Source of the DNA: Apiotrichum sp. Y4204
Lineage: Eukaryota > Basidiomycota > Tremellomycetes > Trichosporonales > Trichosporonaceae
NCBI GenBank assembly: GCA_025531455.1
Contig: JAMYHL010000126.1
Coordinates: forward strand, 1-64,000
Direction: 5' to 3'
Length of the DNA: 64,000 nucleotides
Of the stretch, positions 27,070 through 55,606 are shown piece after piece (within the stretch, counting starts at the first letter, position 1; every line of letters begins with the position of its first letter). The notes beneath the pieces are model-generated. The model saw nothing but the letters and a program-made list of their open reading frames with translations, was not told where the DNA came from and did no database searches. A program made the translations under genes and the position numbers.

Positions 27070-27524
27070 CACATTAAGTCCAGACGATGCTCTGATGGAA
27101 CTCTTTACTCGAGAGCCCAGGTCCAGGCCGCATTGCAGAAGGCCCGGAGAACAGCGGAAACGAGTCGACTCGATGAGTAACACGTCTCAATGCGCCATGC
27201 CCGGGGCCCCCAGCGTGTGGGTCGGCAGGTGTGTCGTCGTTCAACAGAGCTGACAACCTGATTTCCCTCAGATGTACAACGGTAAAGGAACAGTCACAAA
27301 GGGCAAAGGTCTTCACGGAGACGGGATGGGAGTTTCCCATTTTCAAACCTCACATGGGCTCCAAGGGAGCGGATCGTGTCCTGTACACCAAGAAGAACAA
27401 GAACTCTCTTCTGGTGATGGAACACGACGGCCCGAGCTATGCAAAGTGCTTTGAGGTGAAAAAGGATGGTGAGACAACGGGGAGCAGCTGTACCCAGCAA
27501 ACCTTTGCTCCGTTCTACGAGTAG
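27070..27524 (+). pseudogene. RNase T1-like (guanyl-specific ribonuclease fold) gene, apparently decayed
   Basis: Several segments match the RNase T1/N1 family and the intact paralogue at 30.4-31.8 kb. An N-terminal part CSDGTLYSRAQVQAAL is at about 27084-27140. Then, in a continuous frame, come GWEFPIF (catalytic Glu region), GADRVLYTKKNKN (catalytic Arg region) and VMEHDG (catalytic His region), ending in a stop at 27524. The segment that should carry the first catalytic His appears as FPQMYNG in a different frame (27262-27282), offset by one base from the Glu segment, with Gln where His is expected. No signal-peptide exon is visible upstream. A spliced frame avoiding the stop exists but omits this site. 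I read it as a frameshifted or catalytically dead copy; a sequencing error remains possible. Confidence 0.6.
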
Positions 27525-27791: not shown

Positions 27792-29808
27792 TTACTCCTG
27801 CGGCTCAAACGACGTGAACCGCAGGATCATGCTGTCGGGGTCCATCCAGTCGTCTGCACCAAGCCCCGATTCGTCGCCCCATGCCCACTCGGGCTTGTAC
27901 TGGGCTTCCAGTAGATATCCCCCAAAGAAAAACTTTTCTGTCTGTCGGCCGTGGCTAGGCGGCGTGGCGATAACGCAGCCGCGGATTGTCGGACGGGGGA
28001 TGTCTGGCGTGATGGGCGGCAGGTCAATGTCCAGCAGAAGCACGCTGTGGGGTTTGTAGTCTTCAAAGGCCAGCGTGTCGTATACAATGCTCATGGTCGA
28101 CACGGGCTCGGGGGCCCGGACCAGAATGGATCGCGCAGCAATGTACGCGTCTCGTTGCTCTCGGGGAATGGCGTACGCGCCGTCCATCACCACCTGCATG
28201 TGGGGAATGATGAGGAAGCCGTTCCCAACACCGAAAACGCCGGCGCCGCGTTGACTGACCAACCAGCTGAGGTCAGAAGGTGATGGTGCAAGCAATGACT
28301 CACTTGTAGACCAGGCATTGGCTTTCTCCCAGCCAGGCTCTATCCGACGCGAGGTCTTCAAGAAATTGGTCGTACTCCATGCTGTCCTTATCGACAGGAG
28401 TGAGCTCGACTCGGCGAGTACCCTCGGTAATTGGTGGTGGCTCATATTTGTAGAAAAACGACGCGGCATCGTACTCAGGAGACCGCTGCATCAAACGCAC
28501 AACCATCTCTCCCGTGGCCCGCGAATACACATCGACCGGTCCACATTTCCAAGACATGTCAGCAGTGGCAAACACGTATCTCTCCGTGAACACAACCTTT
28601 GTGGGTGTCAGTGAGTTCAGAGCAGCGGGCCGCTACTCACACCGCGGAGATAAGGATACGGTGGAGTCGACACGTCCCATCTCTCCTTTGTCAACGTTTG
28701 TGCCGTCAGGTGTTCCCACTGGATGGATTGGTCGTACACACGCGACACACCCAGATGCTCTCCGCAGTTATCGACGTCGCCTTCGAACTTGCAATTGGTG
28801 GGCGTGAAATCAAACTTCTGATTGAGAAACGACCCAAACTTCTGCAGGTAGCGATCGCGCGGGAGAGAAGCGTCCAGCCCGTGGCAAAGGTGGTTGAACG
28901 CCCGACCCGAAATGTATGCCTCGAATCTCTCGTCGAAACCCTCCCCGCCAAACAGCCCGACATTTGGTTTCGTTCTATAGCGGACGTCTACCAAGGGTAG
29001 TTTGGCAATGTAGCGCACGCTGCCACTCGTGCGCTCGACACAGATCAGCAGCGGCTCTTCCGAATCTCTCGTTCTGGCGGTGAAGAGCAACGCGTCGTCA
29101 CCAGGGTCCTCGCCAAGAAGCCGCAGATAACGATACCCATACGGAATGTGCAGAGGTACAGTGAAGGTCGATACCACGCGGTAAGCAGCGAGGTTGGCGC
29201 GGGTCTTCACATGTCGTATGTCTTTTCGGTAAGCATGAGAGCGCTGAACACTGCTTACATTCTTTCCGCCAGTCGGGCCTGTCCAGCCGCGTGCCCCACT
29301 GATACACAAGATCGGTGGCCAACGGGAGCTCGATTTCCTTCACCTCTCCATTGTCGTCAAAGATACCGGCCCGGATGGGATCATCGTCGGCCAGCTTGTC
29401 TACCACGTCGCGCCGAAACTCGTCCGCCCACCGGCCGCGAAGTGCCATAGCGTCTGCGGTAAGCATAGTTGTCTTCTCCGGCAACTCACATCGAGTGGCC
29501 GTATCTATCGGTGGACCCGAGACGCCGCGACCGTCGCCTTCAGGCATGTCCTGTGACGGCCGCGGACGAAATGGCCCTGGCCTACCATCAAGAGCCAGAA
29601 GACGCCATTTCGTAGTGGCGTCGATGTCCTCCAGCTGAAGAAACAGGCTGCGCCACAGGGAGCTCCCGTCGTGGACCAAACTGCGCCAGGCTGAGCAGAC
29701 GCGCTCTGCTGCCAAAACCGTGTGTACATCTACGTGCGCCAAGATGATGAGAAGGATGTCGGGCGGGAGATACCCGAACTTGTCGTAGGGAGCGTGGGAT
29801 TCTGGCAT
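27792..29808 (-). CDS. F-box protein, 4 exons, 632 aa
   Basis: Exons 29808-29259, 29221-28641, 28596-28304 and 28266-27792 join in frame through introns of 37, 44 and 37 nt. Residues about 9-55 are a typical F-box: YLPPDILLIILAHVDVHTVL then VCSAWRSLVHDGSSLWRSLF. This would bind Skp1 in an SCF ubiquitin ligase. The remaining ~570 residues contain many beta-strand-like segments (YRYLRLLGEDPGDDALLFTA, LILICVERTSG-type, VLLLDIDLPP) reminiscent of a degenerate WD40-like or other beta domain, but no clear repeat is assigned. The substrate is unknown. It lies between the decayed and intact RNase T1-like genes. Confidence 0.85.
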
Positions 29809-30429: not shown

Positions 30430-31776
30430 TCAAGCCTTGGCGGAAGGAGAACCGTCATTCGACCTGCGATTCTTTCTGTTGGGCACGATTTTTATGGATC
30501 CCATCTTTGGCGCGGGAGCCTCGGATACGCGTGGTGGTCTTTCCTCACACGCAAGAAAGTTCATAGACTCATGCTCCATGACCATGATGAAGTTCTTGTT
30601 GCGACTAGTGTATAGGACACGGTAGGATCCGGGCCAATGTGTCGCACGTGTCTCTCCATCTCGCATGATGGGGTATTCTATTCCGGGTGTGGTGGCGGGT
30701 TTTCGGTCCCTCCTGCCGGTGCCACTCTGACCGTTGTACCAGTGAGGGTAGTCTGGCTGTTAATGCGCGTGGTAAGACACCAATACTCACTCGGGTATTC
30801 CTCCATTTCCTTCTTGGCGCCTTCGATCATAGCCGCACGAATATTGCGAGCAGGTATTATTGTACCGCCGCAGCTCCAATCGTTGATGTGGTCGTAGGGA
30901 CCCGCTGCTGTCACAGAACTGCCCGACCTATGAGCTCCGGTTCCCGTTGTTGCTGTCTTGGGCTGGGTGCATGGGGCTGCACCACTACCAGTGCCACCAC
31001 CACCACCACCAGCACGGCCGGAGCGGGCCTCGACATGGGGTGCACGAGGACAGAGAGGAGCGACCTTCTTGGTGCCCTTCCGGGCTTTGGTCCCCTTGAC
31101 CTCTTTGCCCAACCTGCCTGCCTTGCCTCCCTTGCGCCTGCCTGTGCCCCGCAGAGCTCCAGTGCCTTTGCCGTTGCCTTTGCCCGCCCGCGTGCGCCCA
31201 CCACTGCCTCTACCCCCCTTCTTCTTGTTGGTGCCGGTTTTGGCCGCGCCCTTGGCAAGCTTGCGGCCGCTGTCGCCTCGACCCTTGCCCCTCGTCGCTA
31301 CCGTGCCGCTTGCTTTGCCGTTGGCCTTGCTGTTTCGGGCTGGGCTCTTGCCCTTCCTGGTACCCTTTCTGACGCGCTTTTTGCCCTTGGCTACGGCTCG
31401 CCCCTTTCCCTTGCCCCTTGCCGTGCCTCGAGCCGGAGCGGGGCGGCCTGCAGTCCGGCCTCTACCTTTCTTGGACGCCCTGCCAGCCCTGTTAGCAGGA
31501 CGTTTGGTCCGGGCAAGGCGATGACGTGTGGCACGCCGGTCCGTCGCCCTGGGGGTAATGTGGACGTCGGCGATCGCGAGGTCTGGGATTGCGAGATCAT
31601 TCGCGTGTTGAACAGCGGCAGTGTTGACGGTGTCTGTAGCAGACGTAGAAATGTCGTGGTCGTCGGAATTCAGGGTAGCAGGAGCCGCGAGCACGGATGA
31701 GACGACTGTGTAGGCCGCTAGTAGCTGCGATTAGCCCACTGGGAGGAGAGCTGTATCTTACGTGGAACAATCGCAT
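30430..31776 (-). CDS. Secreted RNase T1-like protein with long Lys/Arg/Gly-rich region, 3 exons, 423 aa
   Basis: Exons 31776-31762, 31724-30791 and 30752-30430 join in frame (introns 37 and 38 nt). The first exon is only 15 nt. Splicing it on gives MRLFHLLAAYTVVSSVLA, a good signal peptide absent from the unspliced frame. Residues about 62-227 are extremely basic and low-complexity (K/R/G/A/T; repeated GKGxG and KKG words), with dibasic KR sites that Kex2 could cut. A Gly-rich linker follows. Residues about 286-390 match the fungal guanyl-specific RNase family: C290; Y318-P-H320; E342 in IEYPI; R361 in GSYRVLY; H377 in MVMEHES; C385. These align with RNase T1 Tyr38, His40, Glu58, Arg77, His92 and the outer disulfide. 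Likely an active secreted RNase, possibly a ribotoxin-like effector; target unknown. The basic middle is unusual for the family. Confidence 0.8.
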
Positions 31777-36745: not shown

Positions 36746-39036
36746 CTACTTGTCATGTCGCTTGCGTTTGTTGCCGCGGCGAAGAAGCTGTACAACCTTC
36801 TCTTCAGCGTCGGGCTGGGTGTACCCAGGAAGGCTGTGCGTAGCAGTTGCGTCGAGACGTGCGGTGAAAGCACTTTTCCGTAGCTGGGTGAAGCGCATGC
36901 CGCAGTCGATGGTATCGCGGACGACGAGGGAGTAGACTTCCGTAGGCCGCGTCTGGCCCATGCGGTGAATACGACCGATAATCTGAGCGCGGGCAGCGTC
37001 CGTCCAAGGGTGATCGAGGAAGAAGAGCACGTTCGCACGGTGAAGGTCGATGCTGGTCGACGAGCAGCGCGAGATAATGAGGATGCGCGACTCCTTCTCT
37101 CCGTCGTATGACCATTGACTAACGTCCTTTTGGAACATCTTGCAGACTGCGTTGCGGTCATCCGCGCTTAAACCACTGTTCACATACGTCGCGGGCAAAC
37201 CGGCATCGTCTAGCTGCTTCAAGATGCTGCCGAGAGTCACTGGGCAGACCCACGTAAGATAGATGAGAAATTTGCTCTGCTGCTCGGGTGGGAGATGAGC
37301 TTCCTGATGCACGCGTGGCTTGAGCATCTTGATCAGTTTGACGACCTTCGCCGGGGTGAAGCCATGTTGATTTAGCTTAACGAGACCCACGCGGGAATAA
37401 TACTCGAATGACTTGGGGAGGACGTGATTTGTCCGGCCCTTATTGGCACGACGGGCAGCACGGAAGCTGACGAGGTAGTTCTTGACTTGCTGTGGATCCA
37501 TCTCGTACAGCCTGGAACCGAGCCGGACCACGGCCTCGTAGCTCTCCCTCTGAGCGCGGTTCAGCACGATCGGTACCTCCTGGATAGTGATCTCGGGGAT
37601 ATTCAGAATCGGGCGGCCAAGGAACTGCCCAGTGGATGTGCGGCGGATGATATTGTGCTGCGTAAGCTGCAGCAGAGGCTGCAGTACAAGGTTCACGACC
37701 TTGGATTCCAGTCTCATCCACTTGTCCTTGATGGGCCGCGTCTGGGGCGTGTCGTCCACAAAGTCGATGAAATCCCATTGGTCATGGAGGTCCACGTCTT
37801 GGACATCGTTGTCGTCACCGTCAACTGCGTCCCCCAACGGTTGAATGATGCCCTTGAGGTCCTTCTGTAGAGTTTGCCGCTGGTTCTCCAGGTAGTTATA
37901 GAACCGGACAATTTGGAGGAGCTCGGGGTGCAGCTTCTTATATTGTACCTCGATCTTCCTCTCCATGGAGTGAGAAAGCGTAAACTGGGACAATGGGGCC
38001 TGGCCAAGATTCTGCTTGCCCTTGAGTTTGAACCCGATCAGACGTGTAATATTGAGCAGGTCAAGTGGCCCGTTCCAAATCGGCGTGGCCGTAACGGCGA
38101 ACACTTGATTGCCCTTGGCGGCGAGCTTGCTGCCCCAGCGGAAAAACTCGGTCTCGGGGTTGCGTGCGGTGTGCGCTTCGTCAAAGAAGATGTGGCTCCA
38201 TCGCGTTCCAAAGACACTGTTGTCAATGGCGCCCTCATGCTCCTGCTGGAGAGCGGTAACGAGTTTAGCCTCGGGGTCGAGCGACGTCCAGGAGAAGAGA
38301 ATCACATGGGTTCGCTTCCTGTCTTGGATGGACTTGTAGAAGGCATGCCGCTGAGCCCAGTTCTTCTGCGGCCTCACTTTGATCACGCGGAACCGGTCCT
38401 TGTCGAGAATCTGGGCCAGTTCGGTGTACAGTTGGTCCATCATGCCGTACTCGGAGACAATCAGCACGGGGAGGAGACCGTCCGTACTCGTCTTTGTCGC
38501 AATCCGCAAGCGCTGGTTGACGCCGCGTTCAGGTATCCTATCGCGTGAGCATGCGTTGACATTAGTAGCTGGACGCACTCAGTGAAGTTGCCGGCCAGGA
38601 CACTGGTATGAGTTTTTTGGCACACGCCGCTCTTGCTTGCCAAAGGTCCATTCTGCTTGATCCACAGAGCAAACCCAACGATCATGGCCATCTCCGTTGT
38701 CTTCCCGAGCCCCGTCGCATCAGCCAGAATGAACCGGTCTGCCTTCTGGATCTTGCTATCAGTGCTGTACAGCTGTGAGAAGTACTGTACAACGACTTGG
38801 AGCTGGTGCGGCTCCGGTTGGCGGGTAAGGAAGGGGAACACGCACGCAGAACGGATGCGATGCTCCTCGGGGTGCAGGTACGAGTTGTCTGGTCCGAGTG
38901 CATGTGCCCTTTCTCGGTCGATGTTGGGAGCCTTGATCCGGACTGAGCGTGGCTGGAGAGATTCGAGGCCGAGGTAGCTTAGCATATCCCACGAGTCCCA
39001 CTTTGACGCCGGGACCTCGGCCCACGGGGTCGGCAT
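36746..39036 (-). CDS. SNF2-family DNA-dependent ATPase, 2 exons, 749 aa
   Basis: Exon 1 (39036-38579) and exon 2 (38537-36746) join through a 41-nt intron containing a TACTAAT-like branch site and ending GATAG. The helicase superfamily-2 motifs are in order: Walker A ADATGLGKTTE (residues about 106-115), motif II HIFFDEAHTARN (DEAH at about 272-275), motif III VFAVTATPIWN, then the C-terminal lobe with RILIISRCSSTSIDLHRAN and motif VI AQIIGRIHRMGQTRP. The C-terminus is a basic tail, RRGNKRKRHDK. It would couple ATP hydrolysis to DNA translocation or nucleosome/protein remodelling in the nucleus. There are no accessory RING, bromo or chromo domains, so it is not a canonical Swi2/Snf2 or Rad5 subunit; the precise subfamily is not assigned. 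Confidence 0.9.
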
Positions 39037-47746: not shown

Positions 47747-48770
47747 ATGATCCCCCCCTTCCTTATTCTTCAACTTCTTTCGATTACTACCACGGTATTC
47801 AGTGTGCCAACTCCAAACGTTCTCACCGAGCTACCTGACCACTTCTGGACGGGACACAAAGTCACATACGTCATTCTCCACAAACGCAGCGACAACTTCG
47901 CTGGTCCACAACTGTACGCCTGGGCGGTCGAGGCCGATCACGGCGAGGTCCTCCAGTTTTCAAACGGCACCACCTTCCGCCGCATCGGAGCTCTAGTCAA
48001 ACGCCAGTACCCTGGCGCCTGCCAGAACGTCGAAGTAACAGAGGACGAGGTTGTCAAAACCGAGAAGTACTGGGGAGCTTGCACCTCAGCCTCGACGTGC
48101 GGCTGGTGCGGCGATTCTTGGTCGTCTCCAATACTCCAAGTCATCTTCGCGAACCCTGTCTGTGGGCATCACAGCTGGCATGGCCAACGCTGCGGAGGAC
48201 AGAATCAACGCCAAACGGGACTCAACTTCGGATATCAGTGGAAGGAGGAGAAAACATGGTCCGACACCTTCGAGTGCAGGATTCCCGCCCGCTCATGGAG
48301 GTCGACACTTTGCTTTTGCTCTTTCTTCCCACTGGTTCCAAAGGGGTAGCAACTGTCTGGCCCAATGACTTGCTGACGATCTGACATTCTTGACAAGTCT
48401 GCACGGCTCTCGGGACCACGGCACACATGTGGCCCATGCACACCCATCGTCTCCTGCGATGGTGCTGTTAGTCCCCACCTTGGCTGTACTGACGGGGTCT
48501 CGCAACATTCGTGGACGCGTCTACATGGGCAGGGCCGAAACGAAGCACCGAACCGGCACTGACACCTGTATCAACGAAAGCTGGAGCGAATGGGAGACCG
48601 GCACTAGCGAGTGGCCCATCTTCAAGGAAGCACAGGGCGGTTTGGAGCTTGGTTGCACCAATGGCCCCAAAGCCGACTGTCCCAACAATGGTTTGAAGGG
48701 GCCTGAGGACGAACCACACACGCTTCGGCCAACCGAGAGCACTCATCCGCCCGAAGCAGGACCAGCGTAA
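47747..48770 (+). CDS. Secreted Cys-rich protein, probably 2 exons, about 323 aa
   Basis: The ATG at 47747 starts MIPPFLILQLLSITTTVFS, a signal peptide. The first exon (to 48345) contains many cysteines and aromatics: TCGWCGDSWSSP, CGHHSWHGQRCGG, GLNFGYQWKEEKTWSDTFEC and a possible KR processing site (LVKRQYPGAC). If the frame is simply read on, it stops at 48349 (200 aa). A weak donor (GTAGCA) at 48346 and an acceptor at 48397 would join a second in-frame exon (48398-48770) with TDTCINESWSEWE and LELGCTNGPKADC, giving 323 aa. The Cys spacing suggests several disulfides. I recognise no named family. Confidence 0.5.
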
Positions 48771-50784: not shown

Positions 50785-52573
50785 TCATCTGTTCATTCCT
50801 CTGAAAGACAACTCGAGCAAAATCTCCAGCGAGCGGCTGCGGCCATCGCTCGTTTTTCCGTCCTCGTAGGAGATGGCAATTCCGTTGGTTCCAACCCTCT
50901 CAACAAATATCCACTCTTCAAGGTTTGTCAGCGCGACAAACTTGGGTTTGTGGTGAAAAAGCTGTGCAACGACCTGTATCCCAGTTAGCTTTGAACGAAC
51001 ATGTCGGGCAGCCAACCTGTTCCATAACCTTGACGTCTTTGGATCGTTTGCTTTTGGACGCTAGCTTATCGCTGCTGCGGCGTAACCTAGGCACGGTCCC
51101 CTCCATCTCGACGAAATAATCGCCGGCATTGTCTCTCATGTCGGCAATGGCGGCGCTCGGTAAGGCGTTTTTCGTTTTGAGCTCAATGATGATGGGCATG
51201 TTGGTGCCGTCCGTTGTAAACACGTAATCTGTCACCGGCTGTCGTCGCGTGTTGGCTGGATACCAGTCCAGACTATTTGGAAGGCCTACAATGGCGTCCA
51301 AGACGACATCGACTGTCGCGAGGGCTTCACTGTTTATCACATTTGACAGACCGAGCTCTCCATGAACTGGTTTTCGCTGCACTCTCGTCTTCTTGCTCTT
51401 CACGGCTTCAATCAACTTTACCGCTGTTTCCGCCTCAGAGGGCTCGCGAACCGCGTGGATGAAATGTTCGACATCCCGGACCGAAAAATCGCCAGCCTGC
51501 GATGTGAAACCCGTGACGATACCTGTGCTTTTCATAGTGTTGTCGTCCATGTCGACGGTAGACTTTGATTCTTTGACGTACTGGACATTAATTGCCATGT
51601 CGAATCCCTTTACTGCAGCTATTAGTTCCGCGGTTGCCGCTGTCGAGGGGTGCGCATCTATGTCCATAGGGCAGGTCTCGGAACCGCTTGACCGCTTTGA
51701 ACGACATCTGTCGGACGCCTTGATTCCTTTTTGCTTCGGCCCTGTTAGATTTCGATGGACAGAGGCCGGCCGCTTCTGTTTGGTCTTCTTGTTCGGCTTG
51801 ATCGAAGAGGTAGGCCGTCGATTCTTGGACTTTTTTTTCGACTTGTTGGCGGAGCTAGGTCGCTTTTTTGTAGTCTTTTTCTTTGGCTTGATTCTAGGTC
51901 GCCGATTCTTAGCTTTCGCCTGGGCCTTAGTCGCAGAGGGAGGTCGCTCCGTTTCGGACTTGATCGAGGGGGCAGGTTTATGCTTCTTGGGCTTCCATGT
52001 CGGCTTAATTGCGGAAGTGGGCCGTTTCTTTCCGCCTTTCCTCTTTGGATTGTTCACCGATGTGTGTCGCAGCTTGGTCTTCGGTGCGGTAGCCTTCTTT
52101 TTTCGATTAGTGACATTGTTGGGTCCGCCTGCGGGGCTCTTTCTCTGCTTCGTGACCTTCTTCTTAGCAGCGACCTTCTTTGATTTGAAATGCGGCTGCA
52201 GGTTGGCTTCCTTCTTCTTTGTTGGCTTTGTGGTAGATAGCCTTGTACCGGTCCTTGCTCGCTGTCTGTCGTCCTTCTTCTTGCTGGCAGCCTTCTTCCT
52301 CCGGTTTCGTGGTGTGGTCGTCGCACGTTTGGCGAGATTCCCGTCCGATTCCGTTTCAGTGGTCTGGTCAGGTTCGCGAATATGGGATGTCGGCTGCATC
52401 TGATGGTGTCCTCTGTCCTCTGGCATAGAGGGTAAGTGGTTGGTGAGTGGAACGGTAACGACGACGTCAACGGTAGGGGTGGAAGTATGGGCGTGAGTGG
52501 TATTGACGGCTCGGCTGAGCACCGTGGTGGCCAGCACCAGGGAGACCACCAAGCTGAGGGCAGGAACGCGCAT
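50785..52573 (-). CDS. Secreted protein with Lys-rich repeats and C-terminal PD-(D/E)XK-like nuclease domain, 2 exons, 581 aa
   Basis: Exon 1 (52573-51017) and exon 2 (50973-50785) join through a 43-nt intron (donor GTTGGC, acceptor ACAG). Residues 1-20 (MRVPALSLVVSLVLATTVLS) are a signal peptide. A dibasic K82-R83 (GNLAKRA) looks like a Kex2 site. Residues about 86-285 are very Lys/Arg-rich with degenerate ~20-residue repeats (KKRPTSAIKP, KKRPSSANKS, NRRPTSSIKP, QKRPASVHRN). The C-terminal domain (about 310-581) ends in a core typical of PD-(D/E)XK nucleases: an Asp (D449 or D455), then IIIELKTK (E464-x-K466), then, after the splice, QVVAQLFHHKPKFVALTNLEEWIFV, the 'Q...LTN...W' helix-strand common in this superfamily. 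DNA or RNA cleavage outside or in another cell is inference. The active site is not proven. Confidence 0.75.
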
Positions 52574-53119
52574 CGTCGTCGGTCAAGATGGGTTGGTGAA
52601 TGAAGATTCCTAAGAATGAACGGTGCTTTATACAACAATGAAGAACAGCAAATCGGACTTCTCAGCGCACAGAGTATCGTCTAACCACCTGTCGTATCAT
52701 GCCAGCATAGCATAGCACAGCATAGCACAGCAGTGATATGTAAAGGCGAGAACAGCGATGAAGAGAGCGGTGAAAAAGAACAGGAACATGTTCTTCCGAA
52801 CAAACAAACAAACAAAATGCGATGCACACCCCCTGGCGATGAAACGGCCGTGCCTTGTGGATCCCCTGTCCCGCGCTTCCCGCCCGGCCGACGATCCCTG
52901 ATTTCCCATTACGTAAGAGCACAGTCTCCCCAACAACAACACGACACAACACTACCCAAACATCCGTCTCGCGCAATATCTCTCTCTCTTCGATCTCTTT
53001 CAGTTCCACGTCTCTTCTTGACTCTTCTTCATCTCTCATCTCATCCATTCCCATCCATATCCTACGCACGGCAAATCCTCTTCCTCCCTCGCATCAAACG
53101 ACACCTCACGCACGACAAG
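52574..53119. promoter_or_regulatory. Divergent spacer between nuclease-like and kinase-like genes
   Basis: It contains AGCATAGCATAGCACAGC repeats at about 52705-52732 and a pyrimidine-rich tract (52980-53060, CTCTCTCTTCG-type) before the ATG at 53120. No gene is supported. Confidence 0.5.
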
Positions 53120-54248
53120 ATGGCATCTGAGACCAGCCCCATAGGCAGCACCGTGCATCCGCAGACCGACGCAAGTGCACCACCACTTTCACCGCCCGCT
53201 TCGAACCCCGTAGATATCATTGCAGCGTTACAAGCGGTACGGTCCGGTTTACTTTTCGCGGTGCCGTAGCTGACACTTATTCAGGTCGATACGATCAGAC
53301 TCGACATGAGGGAGGCCGCGCGCGTTGTGCTACCCCGGCGGACCGAGTTCTGCACTCCGGAAGACTACACATCCATCATGACTCTCTCGCGCATTACGGT
53401 CACATCCGACATGAAGCTCAAACTGAAGAGCTCGGAGGTACCGTCCTGCACAGATGACGATACCACAGCTCACGGCCAAACCGAAACTAAGCCCTCCGAC
53501 GATTCGGTAGCTACTGAACCTCCCACAATCGTCATCAGGGAAGAACCCACTCGCACTTCTCATCCTGGAGATATCAATGACGAGCGCTGGGGCCCTGCGT
53601 TTGACATTTTCGATGCCACACTCCGTATCGAGGGAGTCGAACACCCCGGCCTAATGGTCAAACTAGTGGACCTTCGATGCCTTCCAGAAGCTGGCAAGAT
53701 TCCGACCAAAGAATCCGTGACGATGGACCTGGCCGAGGAGGTACACACTTTCACTGTCGCCTCTGCGGCTCAAGGCCTGTGCCTGCCACGTCTTGCCGGA
53801 CTGTTCCGCTACTCCACTCACTTGTACTGTCTGGTGTTTGATGATGCCGGTCGCGAACTGATAAACTGGTACAATGATCCCAATAACGAGGTTGGAACCC
53901 AGAGCCTCCGGTGAGTTGTAGCCAGCTCCTTGCCGTTGTATCCTTATCTGTTATATGGTGAGCTAACAAGAAAGGGATGAGCTAGCGGCGGCCCTTACGA
54001 CAATTCACCACGCCGGAGTTCTCCCTTCGTTTGATGACAACTCGATATTGACCGTCATTCGCCGTGGACCGGACGGCCGCATCAAGTTCTGCAATCTGTA
54101 CAAGGCAGACAGACGGGACAAGTTGAACGCCGAGTGGCTTCGAAAGATACATGGGGAATGTCCGATTACCAAGGAATTGGCAGACGATACGTGGACAAGC
54201 TTTCTGGAGCCCAGCATCGAAGCGTTGTTGTTGGAATTCTCGTCCTGA
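53120..54248 (+). CDS. Kinase-like (probable pseudokinase) protein, 3 exons, 338 aa
   Basis: Exons 53120-53236, 53285-53910 and 53975-54248 join in frame; introns are 48 and 64 nt, the second with a GCTAAC branch site. The N-terminal third is a disordered, acidic, Ser/Thr-rich region. The C-terminal half resembles the small fungal kinase-like proteins near FunK1: LVDLRCLP, then LAGLFRYSTHLYCLVFDDAGREL (hinge-like), LAAALTTIHHAGVLPSFDDNSIL where the catalytic loop (normally HGD...N) would be, and GRIKFCNLYKADR where DFG would be. The HRD Asp and DFG Asp are missing, so catalytic activity is unlikely. A binding or regulatory role is inference. Confidence 0.6.
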
Positions 54249-55606
54249 TGTTAGGGGTATCATACTTGTCATGAACACGATGTCCACGCTTAACCAACCA
54301 GGGTCGGAACTAGCAGTTGCGGCCGGCCGCCGTCCGTGCCAGTCCGTGACTGGACGTTACAAGCTCCTAGCTGTGAGGAGGCCGGGGCAGCAGCTCGCAA
54401 CGTCACGACATGCTAACGCCCGTCCTATACATTGGTGACCGACATGACCGTTTGTTATGGGGGATATAGAGGTTCGTCACGACGGCCCACCGCAACGGCT
54501 CAGCTCAACGGGCTCCGGTCAACTCCTGGTGAGAAGGCCCTGACCCGTGGGAATTGGAAAGCGGACGCACGTCCAGCTTTTCCACCTATGTCATATCTCG
54601 CCTACCGCGAACGCAACAGGAAGGCTCCAGACGACACGCCTTGGTTTCTCCCGCCGCTGCTTGCCGAGGTAGCGACAGCAGACTGGAGGCCACGCGGTTA
54701 TGGGTCTTGGAGATTCAGAGCCGGAGGTTTCTTTTTAACTAACAACAACTCACAGTGCCTGCTCGAGTCTGTGAACTGCTGGGGCCACATATCAGGAGAA
54801 CAGTCGGCACGCAGCGTGCACTTCCTCAACAAAGCCGATCTCTGGTTCTTCGGGTCGCTCTCCCGTATCACAGCGGCCGTGGTTGATGCTGGCGTTGGCT
54901 GAGTAGAGCCAGACACGCCGCACGCTGACAGGGCCGATGGTATCGCCCGTCGAGATCATACGGTGATGCTGCTGATCATCTGCCAGGCCGTCCACAATCG
55001 GCGGTGCTCGCCGTGCCGGTCCCGACGGTCTTGGCCTGTTCAGCCATTTTGTTCGCCGCCGTTTGAGTTTGTTGCCGGCATATCTTGGCGATTGGGGTCT
55101 GCGGCGGGTGGCAGGCATAAAGCCGAGGACGCACCACAGTGGTCAGATTGGACACCCGATGCAAGAATGCGTGATCGACACAGCTCACTGGCCCGTGTGG
55201 GTGATAGACGGGGACCAGGAAGTCTGAAGGGTAGCCGCATCTCACCGGCCCTGACAGCTGTCTAGCAGTTGATCTACTGTGTGCGAGGTGACTGCCAGAG
55301 TAAGGGCAGCTTCATGGCCCGCAGATGATGGGATGGACTTGGAACATTTCCATGTATGATCACAGACTTTTCAGACTTGGTGAAATCATTTGACTTGCAT
55401 TTTAGCGGCAGTTGCTGATAGAGCTTTTCTGCCATGGGCGCTGGCTCCAGAACCACCAGACCTGCATCCAGAATTGTTTCCGCACTTGTGCAAGTGATCC
55501 TTTTTCACTTGCATGATCACTCTTGCTGTAAGACCCTTACATTCCAGCACACAATACTACGCACACGCGACTGGATACACACGGGCTCCACGAGGTTATG
55601 TCCGGA
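54249..55606. other. Gene-free interval
   Basis: Open frames exist at 54432-54902 (plus) and 54792-55118 (minus) but neither has splice, domain or codon support strong enough to call. This is the last normal-looking unique sequence before the repeat region. Confidence 0.45.

Follow-up and report, generated by a model that had tools for sequence, protein, structure and literature searches.

The window described here comprises bases 1-64000 of contig C31, which belongs to an assembly of 48.9 Mb in 182 contigs; all genome-wide searches were performed within this assembly. The window contains a two-exon gene encoding a putative nuclease with a signal-peptide-like start, a long basic segment and a PD-(D/E)XK domain. 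A divergently oriented gene with a predicted protein kinase fold adjoins it, and such partner genes lie beside 14 of the 15 loci of this nuclease family found so far. The linked partner gene is a new finding beyond what an earlier note on this DNA had observed. We see about an even chance that the nuclease gene encodes the toxin of a killer locus made up of two genes, with linked self-protection, comparable to a split and exported form of the Podospora protein SPOK.

The nuclease gene and its product

The earlier note had placed the gene at 50785..52573, and these coordinates are correct, with the minus strand as coding strand. The features are the following:

51017..52573, minus strand: exon 1, 519 codons, residues 1-519
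50974..51016, minus strand: intron, 43 nt, GT...AG, with a branch-like GCTAAC ahead of the acceptor
50785..50973, minus strand: exon 2, 62 codons (50973-50788) and stop codon (50787-50785)
52514..52573, minus strand: signal-peptide-like N-terminus, residues 1-20, from hydropathy
52325..52513, minus strand: pro-region, residues 21-83 (63 residues), no K ahead of the terminal KR 82-83
51674..52324, minus strand: Lys/Arg-rich degenerate repeat segment, residues 84-300, net charge +72
51017..51634, minus strand: PD-(D/E)XK domain, exon 1 part, residues 314-519, from invariant residues and predicted fold

The two exons were kept separate in all analyses. Exon 2 encodes the LTN...W strand region and the final helix, and the mechanical open reading frame (ORF) P0001 overruns exon 1 by seven residues into the intron. 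In all seven family members inspected, a donor-like GT is located right behind the matching (L/M)(E/Q)Q codon.

Residues E406, D449, E464, K466 and Q519 are invariant in 12 of 12 aligned members, which are only ~20% identical to each other; the motif IELKTK occupies residues 463-468. When partial rows are included (15 rows), D, E and K are still invariant and the first E is present in 13 of the 15; L002 and L031 have N in this column and E one column on. The catalytic residues of the PD-(D/E)XK superfamily, E...D...(D/E)xK, are present, and the predicted fold possesses the alpha-beta-beta-beta-alpha-beta core and matches type IIG restriction nucleases. The invariant residues and the predicted fold support the assignment as a PD-(D/E)XK fold and putative nuclease, in line with the earlier reading of IELKTK and Q...LTN...W; a structure prediction of the C-terminal domain was among the checks suggested at that time. 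A Pfam search with seven family members up to E 10 gave no match, and searches of NCBIfam and PADLOC yielded weak matches only. The absence of a curated-family match concerns known subfamilies, not membership of the superfamily.

Within residues 1-35, the top 10-residue Kyte-Doolittle mean is 2.8. The lowest value in the family, 2.19, is reached by 4 of the 49 mechanical window ORFs of at least 150 aa, the nuclease gene being among the 49. This hydropathy suggests that the protein is exported. Residues 21-81 contain no lysine and have a net charge of -5, and KR 82-83 is the earliest KR in the protein. The hydrophobic start and the lysine-free stretch ending at the first KR bear out the previously described layout of a signal peptide and KR 82-83, and the ~200 residues of Lys-rich repeats were recovered as residues 84-300. 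This segment (217 residues) consists of 25% K and 11% R, while residues 301-519 are nearly neutral with a net charge of -4. Among the six-frame stop-to-stop segments of at least 90 aa in the window, only the nuclease gene and an RNase T1-like gene contain at least 12 K per any 60 residues.

The PD-(D/E)XK family in the genome

Fifteen nuclease loci were found, on contigs C31, C99, C79, C136, C173, C165, C142 (two), C57 (two), C20, C130, C152, C93 and C115. This number is a lower bound, since the genome searches, made with four members, scored the best candidates only. Two further remnants contain several stops each (C172:650k and C93:436k). With start codons chosen by eye, all 15 loci show an M-R start followed by a hydrophobic stretch; an M-R start occurs in 6 of the 49 mechanical window ORFs. 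At 10 of the 15 loci, signal peptide and nuclease are located in a single uninterrupted frame. At C57:531k, C20, C152, C115 and C93, a stop or frame change separates the two, which may reflect introns or damage, and the C79 nuclease has two stops within the exon 2 frame.

The position of the basic segment varies. It lies ahead of the nuclease at 11 loci and behind it at four (C142:203k, C57:531k, C20 and C152). The basic tail of L012 (C152:110k) is a near-regular AKKGxAKKG repeat, a pattern that we take to recall histone H1 tails.

A haploid eukaryote is expected to have three genes for second-largest RNA polymerase subunits (Pol I, II and III). PF00562 matches in the genome revealed three near-equal pairs. 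Because of these pairs, the small GT-AG introns and the F-box gene in the window, the assembly probably holds both haplotypes of a fungus.

The linked partner gene

The partner gene starts divergently from the nuclease gene:

52574..53119, no strand: intergenic region between the divergent nuclease and partner genes
53120..54245, plus strand: partner gene, no signal-peptide-like start, predicted kinase fold whose catalytic loops are degenerate
53120-53236, 53285 to before 53912, and within 53967-54245, plus strand: putative exons of the partner gene

A comparison of flanks showed that this divergent gene adjoins the window nuclease and that its relatives adjoin the nucleases on C142, C57 and C152; it also revealed the F-box gene beside the T1 genes treated below. 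A genome search with window positions 53306-53911 gave 21 matches, 17 of which adjoin 14 of the 15 nuclease loci, always in divergent orientation; three of the 14 loci have two partner matches. The remaining four matches, on C124, C138, C127 and C1, have no nearby nuclease among those found. The fifteenth locus (C20, no partner match) starts 1.6 kb from a contig end, and the two nuclease remnants have no partner neighbour among the genome matches.

The N-lobe of the partner is predicted as a protein kinase fold with the Lys and the alpha-C Glu. In an alignment inspected by eye, the DFG Asp is missing in six of six rows and the HRD Asp is retained in three of six. The partner is thus modelled as a protein kinase fold that has lost the DFG aspartate.

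RNase T1-like genes and their F-box neighbours

RNase T1 enzymes are ordinary secreted fungal ribonucleases (RNases). The window contains a T1-like gene with the same plan as the nuclease gene, next to a gene of a different kind:

30430..31776, minus strand: RNase T1-like gene with signal-peptide-like start (short first exon, putative), basic region and T1-like C-terminus
29098..29808, minus strand: F-box gene adjoining the T1-like gene, F-box-like E 2.5e-12

In the genome, five T1-like genes carry the basic segment first (C31, C80, two on C98, and C112) and four carry it last (C165, C48, C79:758k and C24). Two others lack it, namely C79:785k and the window neighbour at 27177-27521. The latter frame, on the plus strand, is also found at C80:2912-3004, and the F-box gene lies between it and the tailed T1 gene. 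The 84-aa C-terminus of the window T1-like gene matches a copy on C80 at 88% and other places weakly. PF00545 is matched by L052 (E 2.5e-8) and L053 (E 4.5e-10); no such match was obtained for L054 or either piece of the window T1-like gene. L052 furthermore matches RNase Po1 and T1 (best E 1.5e-5), and its tie to the window T1 gene is weak (E 0.003 one way, 0.067 in reverse, and 0.005 for the C80 copy). T1-like heads carry an E-x-P-[IL] motif. By eye, its Glu reads A or T in L058 (C24), L050, L051 and L054 (C98, C112), with Arg and His kept; in L060, Arg replaces His.

Since both families show the basic segment first or last, two unrelated nuclease families share a common plan in either order. 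The net charge of the segment ranges from +19 to +98 in 21 genes measured, beside the +72 of the window nuclease. One T1 tail searched in the genome at E <= 1e-4 matched only itself and its C48 copy. The earlier note had proposed a class of 'basic carrier + interchangeable nuclease'. The occurrence of two unrelated folds speaks for this idea, both being multigene families in which the basic segment may precede or follow the nuclease. The basic segments, however, are alike in composition and not in sequence, which gives no support to a shared homologous carrier.

In a genome search, F-box relatives were located 0.5-1.6 kb from the T1 genes at all eight basic-tailed T1 loci (8/8). The earlier note had advised looking for a linked immunity gene; a linked gene is present in both families, namely the partner gene and the F-box gene, with a putative protective role for either.

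Divergence between haplotype-like copies

Copies of these loci diverge unevenly. Between C142 and C57, 36 of 40 steps of 200 bp along an 8-kb stretch are 92.5-100% identical. The four less similar steps fall within or next to the nuclease gene and show 87, 84, 76 and 70%, the last two covering the centre of the nuclease domain. For the T1 genes on C79 and C24, identity is 78-100% outside, 60-78% over a 1-kb block of T1 head and promoter side, and 85-99% in the tail. Synonymous divergence (dS) of head versus basic segment is 0.35 vs 0.08 (L007/L009), 1.37 vs 0.10 (L057/L058), 1.18 vs 0.14 (L010/L012), 0.28 vs 0.08 (L022/L024) and 0.31 vs 0.16 (L052/L053); for L002 with L031/L032, head versus whole N-terminal part is 2.05 vs 0.47. 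Head divergence exceeds that of the rest in seven of seven pairs measured. Old alleles, head exchange or homogenised tails could each produce this pattern.

No close second copy of the window nuclease exists in the genome for comparison. Its flanks have no second long copy either, the genome matches being short repeats, two 0.2-kb matches (C124, C138) and one 0.1-kb match (C120).

Other features of the window

The 0.2-kb stretch near the nuclease, window 48296-48511, matches C124 and C138 at 83-85%. These contigs hold the closest relatives of the partner gene, tens of kb from the 0.2-kb matches. Downstream of the partner, at window ~55376-55600, short repeats match many places, including the first bases of C7, C9, C82 and C155, and are possibly subtelomeric. 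An open frame at window 36746-38443 (minus strand) shows Helicase_C and SNF2-type matches, and another frame extends upstream to 39036; a helicase gene with introns is possible at 36746-39036.

Comparison with known systems

Yeast killer toxins of the zymocin and PaT type possess a chitin-binding carrier subunit and are encoded on a linear plasmid.

In SPOK of Podospora, a nuclease domain kills and a kinase domain protects within one intracellular protein (PMC6660238), and the killing target is DNA (PMC9972908). The present genes resemble it as a fungal PD-(D/E)XK nuclease tied to a kinase-fold part, with HsdR among the relatives in profile or fold comparison, and the killer-protector logic may be common to both. 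Nuclease and kinase form one protein in SPOK, whereas at 14 of 15 loci here they are encoded by two genes in divergent orientation. Furthermore, an active-site aspartate is needed for SPOK resistance, while the DFG aspartate is lost in the partner, and SPOK is intracellular, while the basic nuclease looks exported. The earlier note, which knew of no described fungal system of such a form, has to be narrowed accordingly: a nuclease-plus-kinase killer is known, but as one intracellular protein (PMC6660238).

Bacterial polymorphic toxins are modular proteins that are exported, carry exchangeable nuclease domains and have a protective gene linked to them; the present genes may share this design, with export, domain exchange and protection being putative. 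They differ in that the organism here is a eukaryote and that the bacterial export carrier is replaced by a basic segment, which may lie before or after the nuclease (PMC3482391). The Crinkler (CRN) effectors are modular proteins that carry restriction endonuclease domains, some joined to kinase domains (PMC5289972). The earlier note had found export of PD-(D/E)XK domains surprising, but exported-type restriction endonuclease domains have a precedent in these effectors. The window protein differs from CRN effectors in its hydrophobic signal-peptide-like start, the absence of the motifs LxLFLAK and HVLVVVP, and the location of the kinase fold in a separate gene.

Among the T1 loci, the linkage of an F-box gene to a toxin-like gene resembles Caenorhabditis tropicalis, in which F-box proteins (KSS) act as antidotes. 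There, the toxins are derived from a tRNA synthetase subunit, whereas F-box protection here is only putative (PMC12680543). CfRibo1/2 (PMC11323725) and Zt6 (PMC5724701) also combine a signal peptide with a ribonuclease domain and are antimicrobial or cytotoxic. The parts of these papers covered mention neither a long basic tail nor an F-box gene linked to the RNase, and they say nothing on the PD-(D/E)XK family. Exported polybasic PD-(D/E)XK proteins whose gene is linked to one for a kinase fold were not described among the matches listed from a literature search, outside which most subscription journals lie.

Interpretation

The reading as toxin and protector is based on these observations: the partner lacks an export signal, some partner matches have no nuclease found nearby, the nucleases without partner are remnants or lie at a contig end, and a second type of pair exists with F-box genes. 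Under this reading, the precursor would enter the secretory pathway and be cut at KR, releasing the basic segment joined to the PD-(D/E)XK nuclease. Through its basic segment, the enzyme may attach to nucleic acid and anionic cell surfaces and perhaps reach the nucleus of the target cell, whose DNA the nuclease would cut. The divergent kinase-fold partner would stay within the producer and its kin and protect them. Because its DFG aspartate is lost, protection would be through binding and not phosphorylation. The T1-type RNases and their F-box partners would form a second, parallel set. A wider proposal remains tentative and is, in our judgement, closer to doubtful than to probable: that this is the first eukaryotic arsenal of polymorphic-type toxins and immunity proteins, with exported polybasic nucleases of two unrelated folds and one type of intracellular protector per fold. 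The DNA-type nuclease would be guarded by a pseudokinase and the RNase by an F-box protein, and the nuclease heads at a given locus would be deeply diverged alleles.

Several points weigh against the toxin-protector reading. The linkage could also have arisen by duplication of both genes as a unit, or serve shared regulation. The partner gene has no Pfam match, and its kinase assignment is a model with a predicted template modelling score (pTM) of 0.64. About ten further places hold F-box relatives but no known T1 gene. With only 10 of 15 nuclease copies in one frame, some copies may be pseudogenes. Concerning divergence, L003/L006 are diverged throughout (dS 1.22 in the head, 0.97 in the whole N-terminal part), and the head of L004/L005 is hardly diverged (dS 0.02). 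The main result against the reading is that the C142/C57 partners are 98.1% identical while the DNA of the nuclease head drops to 70-76%. A partner specific to each head is thus unsupported at C142/C57, the sole pair for which both partners were compared, because partner and head do not co-diverge. All 19 comparisons give a nonsynonymous divergence (dN) lower than dS, so that positive selection has left no direct sign.

Effectors typically form multigene families of exported proteins that change fast. The nuclease family, multigene and putatively exported, could comprise host-directed effectors that enter plant or animal cells, with the basic segment as uptake and nuclear-localisation signal and a linked gene without protective role. 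CRN effectors with restriction endonuclease domains act in the host nucleus (PMC5289972), and secreted Colletotrichum RNases kill plant cells and harm microbes (PMC11323725). We nevertheless consider this unlikely, as effectors would not be expected to have a kinase-fold partner lacking an export signal at 14 of 15 loci, nor F-box neighbours at all eight tailed T1 loci, and the window protein lacks both CRN motifs.

Slightly less likely again is a meiotic driver or spore killer, in which the pair acts between sister spores and destroys those not inheriting the partner gene. SPOK provides the precedent of killing by nuclease and resistance by kinase domain (PMC6660238). Haplotype-like copies are strongly diverged at several loci, partner matches occur with no nuclease found and remnant nucleases without partner match, and the flanks of the window locus lack a second long copy, though several other loci occur twice in the assembly. 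Against a spore killer stand the signal-peptide-like start and long basic segment, which the single intracellular SPOK protein does not share, and the presence of the pair on both copies in five haplotype-like locus pairs (C142/C57 twice, C136/C173, C99/C93 and C79/C165).

It is improbable that these proteins are extracellular nucleases for nutrition or housekeeping, anchored to the wall or to nucleic acid through their basic segment and regulated by the linked genes. The ordinary secreted T1 RNases, the PF00545 matches of two companion genes and the match of one to RNase Po1 at 1.5e-5 fit such a role; a common basic plan on two unrelated folds, 15 loci plus nine tailed T1 genes, partners without export signal and strongly diverged heads at several loci do not. 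Very improbable is a basic segment that is merely a non-adaptive, expanding low-complexity repeat in a duplicated gene block: the tails are repeat-like and differ between loci, and duplicates often take neighbours along, but the charge is similar in two unrelated families and at either end, and the pair is retained between copies only ~20% identical.

Significance

If the toxin reading is set aside, the lack of a Pfam match for the nuclease family and the linkage of two genes at 14 of 15 loci still form an unexplained, checkable pattern. If the toxin-protector reading is true, it becomes testable how a secreted nuclease enters its target cell, and by what means a kinase fold without catalytic function, or an F-box protein, could neutralise a nuclease. 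The nuclease-plus-kinase logic of SPOK would then have an exported two-gene form, and fungal cell conflict would use exported nuclease toxins with linked protectors, as in bacteria.
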